From Peptococcaceae bacterium CEB3 (lineage in GTDB: Bacteria; Bacillota; Desulfitobacteriia; Desulfitobacteriales; Desulfitobacteriaceae): a DNA stretch of 64,000 nt. The stretch lies in NCBI GenBank assembly GCA_001029295.1, contig LDXJ01000060.1:124127-188126 (forward strand), read 5' to 3'. A model generated the notes under the pieces. That model was given only the letters and a program-made list of their open reading frames with translations. It was not told where the DNA came from and did not search any database. A program made the position numbers and the translations under genes. How positions within the stretch are numbered: the stretch's first letter is position 1; each line of letters begins with the position of its first letter. This document shows, piece after piece, positions 32,636 through 37,861 of this stretch.

Positions 32636-33334
32636 ATGCCACGTATTGAAATTAAACTCGAACCTGTCCAGGATTGGGAAGAGGCGGCTTGGGAGGACTG
32701 GAGCAGTGCTCTGGGTGCTTTCCTGGCCGAGAGCGGCCGCAGCATCCGCAACACTTTGCGGTTTCCTGGTTACCAGGTCTTGGAAATCGAGGGTTCGGAG
32801 TCTCCGGCTGAGGTGATCCTCAGCGCCTCAGAGCGGCTCGTCCTCCTGGAAGGACTGCGTATCGACGGATCCTTGGAACAGAGGATCATCCGGTTCGTCC
32901 TGCGTTTTGCCAGGCAGATGGGAGCCCAGAGTTTCCTGACTCCGGTCTGTTCACCTCAAGAAGAGGATTTTTGGCGAGCTTTGGGGGCCCGGTTTCATCC
33001 TGACCCGATCGAGCTCAAAGGAGAGGTGGAGCGCGGCCTGGTTGACGTGCGCCCTCTCTCAGGCACCGGCCTTTTGATAACCTATGCCGGGAAGCCTGCC
33101 GTTTGCTTGGAGCCGATTGCCTGCACGGTTCATTCTCCCGGCCCGGTCAGCTTGGCCCAACGCCGGCTGGAGAAGCGTTTCGGCGGGCAGCCCTTGGGGT
33201 TTGCCAGCCGCATTTCCAGTTATTGTCCCTGGGATGTCCGTAAGTCCCAGTGGGATGACCTGCTCTCTTACAGCAGGCTCAAGTCCTATGAGATCCTGGC
33301 GGAAATTGTTTTCGGGCGCAAAGGTATGCGTTAG
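32636..33334 (+). CDS. Conserved-looking protein of unknown function
   Basis: Not recognised. 232 aa from ATG 32636, eight bases after AAAGGAAAG; a start at 32594 would lack a ribosome-binding site. There is no signal peptide or membrane segment. It is acidic in the first third (MPRIEIKLEPVQDWEEAAWE), has a helix-rich middle (LEQRIIRFVLRFARQMGAQS) and a basic, Tyr/Ser-rich end. The middle loosely recalls small GNAT-like folds (LGARFHPDP) but lacks the acetyl-CoA motif. Terminators isolate it from the preceding gene. Confidence 0.6.
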   Translation: MPRIEIKLEPVQDWEEAAWEDWSSALGAFLAESGRSIRNTLRFPGYQVLEIEGSESPAEVILSASERLVLLEGLRIDGSLEQRIIRFVLRFARQMGAQSFLTPVCSPQEEDFWRALGARFHPDPIELKGEVERGLVDVRPLSGTGLLITYAGKPAVCLEPIACTVHSPGPVSLAQRRLEKRFGGQPLGFASRISSYCPWDVRKSQWDDLLSYSRLKSYEILAEIVFGRKGMR

Positions 33335-33393
33335 GGATTTTGACGGAGACGGCGATCAAGCTCAAAATTTCACAAGCTGGCGAAATTCTAGTA

Positions 33394-33658
33394 TTATCGG
33401 GTAAAAAGTAGTATGATATAAGACAGAGGATGAGAGGGCGCAAAGGGGACTTTGACTGGCTTCGGGCCAGAAGCCGGTCAAAAATGGGATTTAAGGGAGT
33501 GGTGTGTTTTTTTAGGAACCCTGGACAAAATGTACGGCAGGAAATGGGCTTTTTGAGGGGTTAGCTCAGAGATAGAAAGATAAATGCCGTACAGGGGCAT
33601 TTGTTTTGTTTTTATGGGTTCGGTGGGTTCGAATGGTTAATTGGAGGAGGGTCATTTT
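33394..33658 (+). promoter_or_regulatory. Leader with competing antiterminator/terminator hairpins (attenuator or riboswitch)
   Basis: A plausible promoter (TTATCG 33394-33399, 17 bp, TATAAG 33417-33422) starts a leader of about 230 nt. It has a 13-bp hairpin (33451-33463 with 33470-33482). Next comes TGTACGGCA (33531-33539), able to pair with TGCCGTACA (33585-33593). Last is a terminator, AAATGCC (33582-33588) with GGCATTT (33596-33602) and the T-run GTTTTGTTTTT. The last two structures share bases 33585-33588 and so exclude each other. This is the logic of a riboswitch or attenuator. I do not recognise the aptamer class. Confidence 0.75.
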
Positions 33659-34492
33659 TTGATTGGGTCGAGTCTCATCATTTTTACGTTCTCTATTCTG
33701 GCGGGGTTTATCGGTTCGTTGTTGGGTCTGGGAGGCGGAATTATTATCATTCCCGCCTTGACGCTGCTCTTAGGTGTCAGTATTCATGAGGCAATCGGTG
33801 CCAGCATCGTCTCGGTCATTGCCACGTCCAGCGGCGCGGCCATCGCTTACGTCCGGGACAAGATCACCAATATCCGGATCGGGATGTTTTTGGAGACCGC
33901 GACCACCCTGGGCGCGATTAGCGGGGCTTTTATCGCCGGTCTGGTTGAACCCAAGGTGTTGTACATCATTTTTGCCGTGTTGATGATGTATTCCGCCGTG
34001 GCCATGTTTCAGAAAAGGCACTCGGAGCTGCCTGTGGATGTCGTGGAGCACCCGGTGGCTGCTCGTCTCAAACTGAGCAATGAGTATTACGATAAAGCTC
34101 TGGACGAAACCGTGGCCTATAAAGTCACCGGGGTCTACCCCGGCTATGCCGTCATGTACGGAGCGGGTGTCATTTCCGGCTTGCTCGGAATCGGCAGCGG
34201 GGTTTTCAAAGTCCTGGGCATGGACGTTTTTATGAAGCTGCCGATGAAAGTGTCCACCGCTACCAGCAATTTTATGATCGGAGTGACTGCCGCGGCCAGC
34301 GCAGGGGTTTACTTTTCCCGCGGCGACATTAATCCCTTAGTGGCCGGTCCCGTGGCCTTGGGAGTGCTATTGGGAGCGCAGGCCGGAACTAAAGTGATGG
34401 AGCGTTTGAATAATAAGACCTTGCGTCTTATTTTTATTCCCATTTTGCTGTATGTAGCTTTACAGATGCTCTGGAAGGGTTGGTGGATGTAG
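33659..34492 (+). CDS. TauE/SafE-family transporter
   Basis: 277 aa from TTG 33659, seven bases after GGAGGAGGG; a TTG at 33641 would overlap that site. About eight membrane helices are visible. Family motifs are GFIGSLLGLGGGIIIIPALT near the start and GVISGLLGIGSGVFKVLGMD in the second half, the two halves of the fold. The family exports sulfite, sulfonates or related organic anions, and some members import. It is coupled by a 1-base overlap to a DUF1634 gene, a recurrent partner. An attenuator-like leader precedes it. Confidence 0.9.
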   Translation: MIGSSLIIFTFSILAGFIGSLLGLGGGIIIIPALTLLLGVSIHEAIGASIVSVIATSSGAAIAYVRDKITNIRIGMFLETATTLGAISGAFIAGLVEPKVLYIIFAVLMMYSAVAMFQKRHSELPVDVVEHPVAARLKLSNEYYDKALDETVAYKVTGVYPGYAVMYGAGVISGLLGIGSGVFKVLGMDVFMKLPMKVSTATSNFMIGVTAAASAGVYFSRGDINPLVAGPVALGVLLGAQAGTKVMERLNNKTLRLIFIPILLYVALQMLWKGWWM

Positions 34493-34869
34493 TGGACGAC
34501 AATAAAGCCGCCGGTCAGGCCAATTTGTTTGATGCGGAATTGTTCATCAGTTCCAGCTTGCGTTTTGGCGTCTATCTTTCGGCCATAGTGATGGCCTTAG
34601 GTTTGGTCCTGCTTTTTGTCAGAGGAGCTTCGGGTTATCCCGCCGATGTCTTTCCCACCTCGCTTCCTCTTCTATGGGCTGGGCTGTTTCTGTTTAAGCC
34701 CGCAGCCATCATTACTCTGGGACTTGTGCTCCTGATTGCCACGCCCGTCTTCCGGGTGGCGGCTTCCGTCCTATTGTTTTTGATGGAGAAAGATCACCTG
34801 TATACGCTGATCACCTTATTTGTCCTGGCTGTCTTGATTACCAGCTTCCTGATTGGCAAGTCCCTATAG
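34492..34869 (+). CDS. DUF1634 membrane protein, TauE partner
   Basis: 125 aa from GTG 34492 in the arrangement TAGTG with the preceding stop; a TTG at 34480 is an alternative. Three membrane helices are visible (about 21-42, 62-82, 101-122), with the DUF1634 pattern IITLGLVLLIATPVFRVAAS. DUF1634 genes often follow TauE/SafE genes, suggesting a two-component transporter, but the function is unproven. The last 6 bp overlap the remnant on the opposite strand. Confidence 0.85.
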   Translation: MDDNKAAGQANLFDAELFISSSLRFGVYLSAIVMALGLVLLFVRGASGYPADVFPTSLPLLWAGLFLFKPAAIITLGLVLLIATPVFRVAASVLLFLMEKDHLYTLITLFVLAVLITSFLIGKSL

Positions 34870-35274
34870 GGTCTGTTCACATAACAAGATATCGTTCCTG
34901 ACGGCTGCCAAGGCTTTCATCCGTTCCGTATAGCCGTTGATACTGAAAAAAATAAAGGACTCCCGGCGGTTATCTTTGTTCCAGATAACCGCCTTTTTCT
35001 TTTCCAACAGAGTGTAGAAAATGTCGATGTCCATGGGCTCCTTCGTATACTTGCATTCCCCGAAGAGGATGTCCTGACCGGTGCTGTCATAAGCGACCAG
35101 GTCTATTTCCGTGTTGTTGTTCCACCAGCGTCCCACCTTATCAAAGCAGAAAGGGAGTCGCCCTTTGGCATTGAGCTCCCACATTTTTTCCCGGCAAATA
35201 TCCTCATAGGCGCAGGCAACGTGGCGGCTGATCCAATGGGTCTTTATTTTATCGTCCTGCCACGGATAAGCCGA
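34864..35274 (-). pseudogene. C-terminal remnant of an archaeal-type AAA ATPase (DUF234 domain)
   Basis: The minus strand is open from a TAA at 35275-35277 down to 34864. It encodes about 136 residues starting SAYPWQDDKIKTHWISR and including HVACAYEDICREKMWEL, EIDLVAYDSTGQDILFGECK and VIWNKDNRRESFIFFS. This is the DUF234 nuclease-like tail of a roughly 450-residue ATPase family. The ATPase part (P-loop, HTH) is missing upstream, so it is a truncated remnant. An internal ATG (35184) could still allow a 106-residue product, but I see no clear ribosome-binding site. It suggests past insertion and decay here. Confidence 0.75.
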
Positions 35275-35461: not shown

Positions 35462-37861
35462 TCAGCTGAATACGCTGATTTGGTTGGTGTACGCAGCCGC
35501 CGGGGTGCCGCTCGAGTTCGACAGGGTGATTACGTCGTTGTCATAGGCATCCCAATTGGTCGGCGCGGTGCCGACGGTATAGCTGAGGACGGCTTTGCCG
35601 GCGGAGTCGAGGGTGACAGCTGCCGGTGTGGCGCCGATCTTCTTTCCGCCTGCCGTGAGGGTGCCCGTCTTGTCAATCGTACCGGGTTTGAAGGTCACAT
35701 AGACGGTACTGCCCGCGGCGAGAGGATGGCCGTCGGCGCCGATGGCCGTGAGCACAAGGTTGTAGGTCTTTCCGGTCTGAGCGCCGTTAATGATCTGGTT
35801 GACGAGGGCCCCGGAGCCCGCGGGGGAACTGACCGAGGCGGGAGCGCCAATTGTCAAGGCGCTGGAGTCGCTCGCAGCGCTGTTGGCGACAGTAAATGTC
35901 GTTACTGATGTACCGTTGGGGGTACTGGATGTGTTGATGGGTGCGGCTGTGGTCGAGCCGTCAGCCGGGGTATTCGACGGCACCGTTGCTGCGGTCGTGT
36001 CCATGGGTTTGAACAAGATCTGGTTTGACTGATACTGCACCGGTTCTACGCCCAGCGCTTTGGCCAAGTCGGCGACCGGCAGGCAGGCGGCGCCGTCTTG
36101 GTCTACGAGCGGGGAGCTTAATTTGACCGCCTGCCCGTCGACTTTGACGCTGTCTCCGTGGTTCGGGATCTGGACCAAGTGGCCTCCGTAGATGAACCAC
36201 GTCTGGTCGCCATTCTGATGGGGTTGGACGTCCAGGCCCTGGGTGAGATCCCCAATAGCCATGTAGAGCTGTCCTTGACGTTCAAAGGGTTTAATTTGAG
36301 CTACCGGCTCGCCTGTATTCGGATCCAGGAACACGGGGGGGTTATTGTAACCCGGTGTAAAGTTAAACATGTCGTTAAGGGAACCCGCTTCGGCATCAAA
36401 AGACTCCTTGCCAATCTGTCCGAGATTCCAGTTGTCTTCGACAAAACGGAGTACGGAAGACTGGTCTGCCAAGGTATTGATCACGGCATTATGTTTGGCA
36501 TACGGTGAAATTACAACCATCGGAAACCGCGGTCCGTAGCCTAGCCGATCTTCGGCTCCGCCTAAGGGCGGATTGGCCCCGGCGTTCTTTCCTTCCAGGG
36601 CGTCCACGGCCGGATCGTTTGATTGATTGATAATCGGAGGCATGACGTGGTCATACCAGCCGTCAGAGTCGTCATAGGTGAGAAAAATAGCGGTATTTTT
36701 CCAAGTCGGCAGGGACTCCAACTTGTTGATAGTGTTGACGAGCCAGGTTTGTTCGTCCAGCGGATCGGAGTAGGATGGATGCCCGTCTTGGTAGGCAGGC
36801 GCTTTTAAGAAAGAGTAGCTGGGCAGATTGCCGGCATCCGCGGCCGCCCAGAAGTCCGTTATGTCATATTGGTGATTCGCTTGATCCGTGCGGCCAATCA
36901 TAGCCACGGACGAGGGTTTCTTGTGTGTCACATTGGACGTCGGACCATAGTATTGAAATGGTTCATGGTGAGGGATGTAGTCCGTTACTTTTTCCCCGGC
37001 AATGTTCTTATGCTGGGCTGTGGGGTCGTCATATCCACCAAAGAAACATCCCCAAGTGAGGCCTTTAGCGTTTAACAAGTCACCGATATTTTTGCCGGAC
37101 ATGGCGACGGTGGCGCCTTTGGAAGCATTGTCATAGTAAGGGTCGATATCGCTATAGATCGTGCCGTTGCTGTTAAGTCCCCATTTGGGAAAGCCTTTGT
37201 CCCCAGGTTGCAATTTTTTGCCGTTTTTCGCTTCGTTGGCACTGTAGGCTGTCGCTCCGTGGGTGTTGCCCGAAACGACGTTGATAGCTCCGGGAGTGGA
37301 AGGACCCAGGTTTGAGCCGAAGTAATTGTCATTTATGGCATAGTGTTGGGCATAATTCCAAAAAGCAGTGACAGTGTTTCCGTCAAAATAATCCATGACT
37401 TGGGTATTGCCGTGTCCGTCATTTTGGACAAACTTGTCCATCAGTCCGCCGTCAAATGACTTTTGTTCAGCGGTGTAACCGTGATCGAAGTCGACGGTGT
37501 GGGCTTGAGAGCGATCTAAACGCTGTGGATTTGCCTGGTTGGGATTGTTGGTCAATAAGGAGGCACTCAGCCCGTTGACCGTAGGAGTGCCCGGGGCCGC
37601 GTAGAAGGGTGGTTCACCGGCGGGATTCTTGGCAACCGGATAAGTACCGAAATAATGGTCAAATGATTCGTTTTCCTGGAATATAACGACAACGTGCTGA
37701 ATGGGAGTGTTTGCCTTGGCACCGCTGATGACGGTACCGGCGGGTGCCGAAGCAGAAGACACGCCCGCTAAGGCGGCCGGGGCGGCGCCGGCTGCCATCA
37801 GGGTACCGAGTACGGCGGTACTTGTGAGGACGGCGACGGCTTTCTTGAGTTGAATTTTCAC
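35462..37861 (-). CDS. Secreted phosphoesterase (phospholipase C/acid phosphatase family, PF04185-like)
   Basis: 799 aa from GTG 37861 with AGGAGG ten bases upstream. Residues 1-32 form a signal peptide (KKAVAVLTSTAVLGTLMAAG). Residues about 50-500 form the phosphoesterase domain: HVVVIFQENESFDHYFGTYP with the metal/nucleophile region, NDNYFGSNLGPSTPGAINVV, and LTYDDSDGWYDHVMPP. Residues about 520-620 resemble a copper-amine-oxidase N-terminal-like stalk, then come a Ser/Thr linker and an Ig-like C-terminal domain. It likely hydrolyses phosphate esters outside the cell. It is the only gene of its kind here. The promoter region carries phosphate-box-like repeats. Confidence 0.88.
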   Translation of the reverse strand: MKIQLKKAVAVLTSTAVLGTLMAAGAAPAALAGVSSASAPAGTVISGAKANTPIQHVVVIFQENESFDHYFGTYPVAKNPAGEPPFYAAPGTPTVNGLSASLLTNNPNQANPQRLDRSQAHTVDFDHGYTAEQKSFDGGLMDKFVQNDGHGNTQVMDYFDGNTVTAFWNYAQHYAINDNYFGSNLGPSTPGAINVVSGNTHGATAYSANEAKNGKKLQPGDKGFPKWGLNSNGTIYSDIDPYYDNASKGATVAMSGKNIGDLLNAKGLTWGCFFGGYDDPTAQHKNIAGEKVTDYIPHHEPFQYYGPTSNVTHKKPSSVAMIGRTDQANHQYDITDFWAAADAGNLPSYSFLKAPAYQDGHPSYSDPLDEQTWLVNTINKLESLPTWKNTAIFLTYDDSDGWYDHVMPPIINQSNDPAVDALEGKNAGANPPLGGAEDRLGYGPRFPMVVISPYAKHNAVINTLADQSSVLRFVEDNWNLGQIGKESFDAEAGSLNDMFNFTPGYNNPPVFLDPNTGEPVAQIKPFERQGQLYMAIGDLTQGLDVQPHQNGDQTWFIYGGHLVQIPNHGDSVKVDGQAVKLSSPLVDQDGAACLPVADLAKALGVEPVQYQSNQILFKPMDTTAATVPSNTPADGSTTAAPINTSSTPNGTSVTTFTVANSAASDSSALTIGAPASVSSPAGSGALVNQIINGAQTGKTYNLVLTAIGADGHPLAAGSTVYVTFKPGTIDKTGTLTAGGKKIGATPAAVTLDSAGKAVLSYTVGTAPTNWDAYDNDVITLSNSSGTPAAAYTNQISVFS

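Follow-up and report, generated by a model that had tools for sequence, protein, structure and literature searches.

A probable conditional transcription attenuator in the leader of tauE-DUF1634, found only in the genus Acididesulfobacillus

Results and Discussion

The tauE-DUF1634 locus and its leader

The window analyzed here is a 64-kb stretch of DNA from the 5.3-Mb genome of CEB3, a bacterium of the genus Acididesulfobacillus. The organism is an acid-tolerant sulfate reducer. The features of interest are summarized in Table 1. They center on tauE, which encodes a TauE/SafE-family membrane transporter, and on the overlapping gene for a small DUF1634 membrane protein. The likely start codon of tauE is the TTG at 33659, which has a strong Shine-Dalgarno (SD) sequence upstream (GGAGGAGGG, duplex -12.2). 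The pairing of the two genes recurs elsewhere, with DUF1634 as the next ORF after tauE in 27 of 28 other loci checked. TauE/SafE proteins are widespread and their substrates are mostly unassigned; for the protein in the window, "anion exporter" is a family annotation.

Genomic context did not point to a substrate, either in the window, where the neighbors are a PHP/HisJ-like phosphatase, an unassigned protein, and a DUF234 remnant, or in other genomes. Among 53 neighbors of TauE-DUF1634 pairs scanned in other genomes were ROK-family proteins (8), prolipoprotein diacylglyceryl transferase (5), and GntR/UTRA regulators (3), with no convergence on one substrate. The DUF234 match (34864-35184, minus strand) is short and partial, covering 44-91 of the 100 positions of the profile, and is probably a gene remnant. 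A strong plus-strand terminator lies inside it (34965-34993) and could end the tauE operon. Farther downstream, 35462-37861 on the minus strand encodes a 799-aa protein with an N-terminal signal-like stretch, a phosphoesterase domain of the phospholipase C/acid phosphatase type, and a weak copper-amine-oxidase N-terminal-like domain. Our literature search returned no paper naming both DUF1634 and TauE, and the published A. acetoxydans literature that we examined mentions neither a TauE gene nor a riboswitch.

The leader is about 235 nt long (about 33404-33640) and runs from a sigma-70-like promoter to tauE, with transcription predicted to start near 33404. The promoter was located by a consensus scan in which the number of candidates in the region was close to the chance expectation. 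For comparison we used A. acetoxydans (NZ_LR746496 locus), the sole same-genus genome sampled, which matches the leader at 91%. The promoter stretch (33369-33403) carries substitutions at 2 of 35 bases in this comparison, against 28% divergence in the adjoining spacer upstream. A direct repeat, TAGTATTAT (33389-33397) and TAGTATGAT (33409-33417), 20 bp apart, overlaps the -10 box with its first copy and has one change in its second copy in A. acetoxydans; it could be a tandem promoter or an operator.

Table 1. Coordinates of the features in and around the tauE leader (positions in the 64-kb window).
Feature	Position	Strand	Details
Likely promoter	33369-33397	+	TTCACA, 17-bp spacer, TATTAT; sigma-70-like; consensus scan
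Conserved first transcribed part of leader	33404-33438	+	1/35 substituted; binomial p 0.0025 against 21% third-position divergence
13-bp hairpin	33451-33482	+	12 Watson-Crick pairs and 1 G-U pair; -21.5 kcal/mol in the window
Weak candidate leader-peptide ORF	33452-33556	+	TTG start; SD AAAGGGG; 34 codons; ends in MYGRKWAF and stop
Possible anti-antiterminator, 5' strand (AACCCT..CAAAA)	33517-33530	+	Pairs with 33550-33562; minimum-energy off fold
Antiterminator 5' arm, TGTACGGCA	33531-33539	+	Complements 33585-33593 perfectly over 9 bp; identical in A. acetoxydans
P2 hairpin TGGGCT/AGCTCA in antiterminator loop	33545-33568	+	6 bp; kept in both genomes
Possible anti-antiterminator, 3' strand, TTTTTGAGGGGTT	33550-33562	+	Folding
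Intrinsic terminator stem-loop AAATGCC-GTACAGG-GGCATTT	33582-33602	+	33582-33588 (AAATGCC) paired with 33596-33602 (GGCATTT); loop GTACAGG; U-rich tail to 33616
Antiterminator 3' arm, TGCCGTACA	33585-33593	+	Shares 33585-33588 with the terminator
tauE, TauE/SafE-family membrane transporter	33659-34492	+	Pfam PF01925, E 2.8e-52; TTG start
DUF1634 small membrane protein	34480-34869	+	Overlaps the end of tauE; Pfam PF07843, E 2.6e-28

Competing pairings in the leader

The sequence-only reading of this locus had proposed an antiterminator and a terminator that share bases 33585-33588, and both can be read directly in the sequence. Up to 12 pairs (33577-33588 with 33596-33607) are available to the terminator stem, and GTTTTTAT comes after it. 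A U-tailed intrinsic terminator (33577-33607) lies in the 5' leader, ahead of the coding region. The distal part of its 5' strand is the first four bases of TGCCGTACA, and through these common bases the antiterminator competes with the terminator stem beyond what chance would give. Computed folding energies are -24.1 kcal/mol for the antiterminator segment (z -3.0) and -13.5 kcal/mol for the terminator (z -4.35). In dinucleotide shuffles of the leader, a terminator alone appeared in 103 of 4000 sequences; 0 of 4000 combined a U-tailed terminator 7 bp or longer with a perfect 9-bp competitor that overlaps it. This figure serves as a guide and not as an exact probability because the criteria were set after the feature had been seen. 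On both strands of the window, only this one place carries an arrangement that meets them.

Folding of the isolated segment 33516-33616 yielded two alternative structures. The off fold (-26.3 kcal/mol for the window and -27.0 for A. acetoxydans) combines the terminator with the anti-antiterminator, in which 33557-33562 is the partner of 33517-33522 and 33550-33554/5 that of 33526-33530; these pairings enclose the antiterminator 5' arm. A T33562A change in A. acetoxydans costs the anti-antiterminator one terminal pair. In the on fold, the CCCT of the 33517-33530 strand takes an alternative role and extends the 9-bp antiterminator by pairing with GGGG, giving -24.7 kcal/mol in both species. The P2 hairpin by itself is not more stable than shuffled sequence (z -0.7).

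The computed gap between on and off is within about 2 kcal/mol, and which state dominates varies with the length of 5' leader included in the folding. With the full leader, the window favors the on state (P 0.92) and A. acetoxydans the off state (P 0.99-1.0). When the RNA was folded stepwise, the antiterminator appeared first and gave way to the terminator only once the terminator's 3' arm was complete. Folding thus shows two states close in energy and gives no indication of the default one. With so small a difference in computed energy, a modest signal could shift the switch from one state to the other.

Conservation between the two Acididesulfobacillus genomes

As a neutral yardstick we used the third codon positions of four neighboring genes, which differ between the two genomes at 21%. 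The middle of the leader shows 15% divergence with two gap columns. Within the switch (33517-33616), 3 of 100 bases are changed (p about 1.5e-7 under the third-position rate), a count that could also reflect constraint on a DNA-binding site or on a peptide. The antiterminator arms, terminator, and U-run together have 0 of 44 bases changed (p about 3e-5), including 0 substitutions in the 35 bases from terminator to U-tail (33582-33616). The inter-arm segment 33540-33581, which is purine-rich, has 3 of 42 bases changed. Every pair is simply invariant, with no compensatory change in this two-sequence comparison. Measured against the third-position rate, selective constraint is shown to fall on exactly the competing elements, with base pairing as a candidate cause. 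The attenuator proposed from the letters of the window is supported by this localized conservation in a second genus genome, together with the shuffle statistics.

The promoter and the first 35 transcribed bases are also conserved (3 of 70 changed, p about 7e-5). The stretch 33404-33438 may be an initial transcribed region, an operator, or part of the RNA switch. Its pairing to the terminator tail was considered and dropped, as it was no better than in shuffled sequences (161 of 500).

The 13-bp hairpin behaves differently. It is present where the sequence-only reading placed it, and the sensing role suggested for it did not hold up: in A. acetoxydans 8 of its 32 bases differ (25%), 3 of its 13 pairs are broken, and its folding energy is -8.9 kcal/mol, compared with -21.5 in the window. 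Because it diverges at the neutral rate and loses three pairs, the hairpin is probably not a constrained sensing domain.

Known regulatory classes and phylogenetic distribution

The leader had been described as matching no known class, and the database searches agree. An Rfam scan of the window at the gathering score, covering riboswitch and leader classes with T-boxes included, gave no match; at E<=10, the region 33200-33760 returned only two snoRNA chance matches at E 6-7. A search of both genus genomes with RF00442 (ykkC/Guanidine-I) did not report the leader at E<=10 either. Several further readings were rejected: by eye, there was no hexaloop pair with A1/G4 as for ANTAR, no regularly spaced (G/U)AG repeats as for TRAP, and no match to the PyrR loop, while the tRNA-like stretches GTTAGCTCAG and GGGTTCGAAT form no cloverleaf and the Rfam tRNA model gave no match.

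Comparable leaders were sought at other TauE loci. The TauE-DUF1634 leaders read at 26 loci (Desulfosporosinus, Moorella, Clostridium, and others) did not contain the attenuator, and a terminator scan of other TauE-DUF1634 loci found no such leader. In a covariance search of 37 TauE-DUF1634 loci, the best match outside the genus scored 22 bits (E 0.024), with P2 broken and a position far downstream of tauE. Known classes were likewise lacking at 39 other TauE loci, tRNA and Na+ riboswitch matches aside; in Clostridium folliculivorans, a Na+ riboswitch (RF03071, 61.8 bits; L011 5896-5953) lies about 2 kb downstream of the TauE-DUF1634 pair. A. acetoxydans itself has a second TauE (L006 3001-4220), 94% identical to the one in the window, accompanied by DUF1634 and located downstream of an FmdE-like gene. 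No attenuator precedes this paralog, so one A. acetoxydans TauE paralog is controlled differently.

Within the order (74 genomes), a covariance model of the switch recovered the two genus members and no others, and among 398 genomes of the phylum it matched the window and one genome with three 30-32-bit matches that were since rejected. Despite a deceptively similar alignment, these three matches (G402) are copies of a palindromic interspersed repeat between genes, none of them ahead of a gene. The repeat is about 120 bp long and has at least 33 copies in that genome; genomes of several species in one Bacillota genus each carry dozens (L089-L091, L115-L126), which makes it a source of false matches to the model. 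Overall, no credible homolog outside the genus was found in about 470 genomes with this model, which was built from two nearly identical sequences (about 97-99% in the switch) and would miss strongly diverged homologs. Matches of 29 nt at the DNA level (L003/L004) fall in a ribosomal-protein/secE region, in antisense or sense orientation, and were put down to chance. A search of plasmids and phages gave no match to the leader; in viral contigs the exact inverted-repeat pattern hit 23 stretches, and chance occurrences of a 9+9 base pattern are to be expected in a set of that size. The genome of the window gave one match only, with no second copy of the leader.

Proposed mechanism and alternative explanations

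Based on the pairings, their conservation, and their distribution, we propose that the leader of tauE-DUF1634 acts as a conditional transcription attenuator, one that we found in no genus but Acididesulfobacillus, and we place the probability of this reading at roughly 70%. In our assessment the attenuator is real, selectively maintained, and ordinary in kind. The terminator/antiterminator platform is common to many riboswitches, T-boxes, and protein-controlled leaders. Like generic Firmicutes attenuators, the leader sets an exclusive antiterminator against a U-tailed terminator, with a further competing pairing upstream; unlike them, it has no recognizable sensor class and is restricted to one genus. 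Compared with ligand-binding riboswitch classes, its lack of a homolog elsewhere is unusual.

In the off state, pairing of 33517-33530 with 33550-33562 would keep TGTACGGCA in an upstream hairpin, and TGCC would be free to form the terminator. In the on state, TGTACGGCA would be released and pair with TGCCGTACA; the terminator would be disarmed and RNA polymerase could read into tauE-DUF1634 under some condition. We infer that the leader regulates these genes and that the on state answers a signal connected with the exported anion or with a related stress. The signal would act on the conserved core (33517-33593), the probable sensing site, and not on the 13-bp hairpin. Direct recognition of a small molecule or ion is the input that we rank first, at odds well short of even; a protein or small RNA and a leader peptide come next and are nearly as likely. 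A more specific version, which we put forward as speculative, is a compact lineage-specific riboswitch in which the 45-nt inter-arm segment (33540-33584) is the predicted ligand-binding domain, and would, in acidophilic sulfate reducers, switch on an exporter whose substrate is a toxic oxyanion or organosulfonate.

Two other inputs would operate the same pairings. In ribosome-mediated attenuation, a leader peptide would be translated from TTG 33452 or ATG 33530, and the position of the ribosome would free or hide the antiterminator 5' arm. With its competing pairings and a short ORF whose end falls between the two antiterminator arms, the leader does recall trp-type attenuators. The TTG 33452 ORF is preceded by an SD (-6.8 and -6.3 in the two species), is open in both, and leaves a 1-nt indel at 33445 outside its bounds; the terminal MYGRKWAF and stop (33530-33556) are identical in both, with two base changes that are both synonymous. 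However, changes in 33452-33512 are spread over first (2), second (5), and third (5) codon positions, so the peptide is not conserved there, and a 2-nt indel at 33513 separates a common frame before it from different frames and ends after it. Unlike in trp-type attenuators, the frame of the ORF is not kept between the two species, and there are no convincing regulatory codons, with no run beyond three TGG. For ATG 33530 the SD is weak (-4.2 in the window). We regard a leader peptide as rather unlikely to be the input. A trans-acting protein or small RNA that chooses between the folds by binding 33517-33581 (or 33404-33438, where the leader starts) carries similarly low odds. The conserved, purine-rich inter-arm segment would suit such a factor, and a lineage-specific factor would account for the narrow distribution better than an aptamer class of wide occurrence. 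Against it, no recognized binding motif was identified in the leader, the leader occurs once in the genome, and no candidate regulator gene adjoins the operon.

The remaining readings dispense with this switch altogether or assign it to a known class. A constitutive partial terminator could lower or insulate tauE expression, with the 9-bp complement retained for some other role, for example as an operator at the DNA level. TGTACGGCA and TGCCGTACA together make an inverted repeat and might be a pair of half-sites, and with two genomes RNA and DNA function cannot be told apart by conservation alone. Yet the overlap of the arm with the terminator is just where an antiterminator requires it, and the repeat, at a spacing of 30-60 nt, turned up a single time in both the genome of the window and A. 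acetoxydans and in 0 of 39 relatives, so it is not a repeated operator in that form. We consider this reading improbable. Still less credible, and disfavored here, is the reading that the leader belongs to a known riboswitch class and has diverged from it, with ykkC subtype 2d as the foremost candidate. The orphan riboswitches of that subtype precede EamA and TauE/SafE genes and their ligand is unknown (PMC7266159), so the type of gene controlled is the same. However, in the comparison, made with RF00442, the CEB3 leader had no match, while RF00442 does find a 45-bit ykkC relative elsewhere in the genome. This relative (C64:112242-112364; L127 about 1501-1623) scores below gathering, lies upstream of a gene reading like a branched-chain aminotransferase, and possibly belongs to the ppGpp or another subtype.

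If the input of the proposed conditional attenuator is identified, it would point to the substrate or the stress handled by the TauE-DUF1634 pair. The host organisms are used in the treatment of acid mine drainage. The narrow distribution of the attenuator makes it a test case for how an attenuator originates within one genus.
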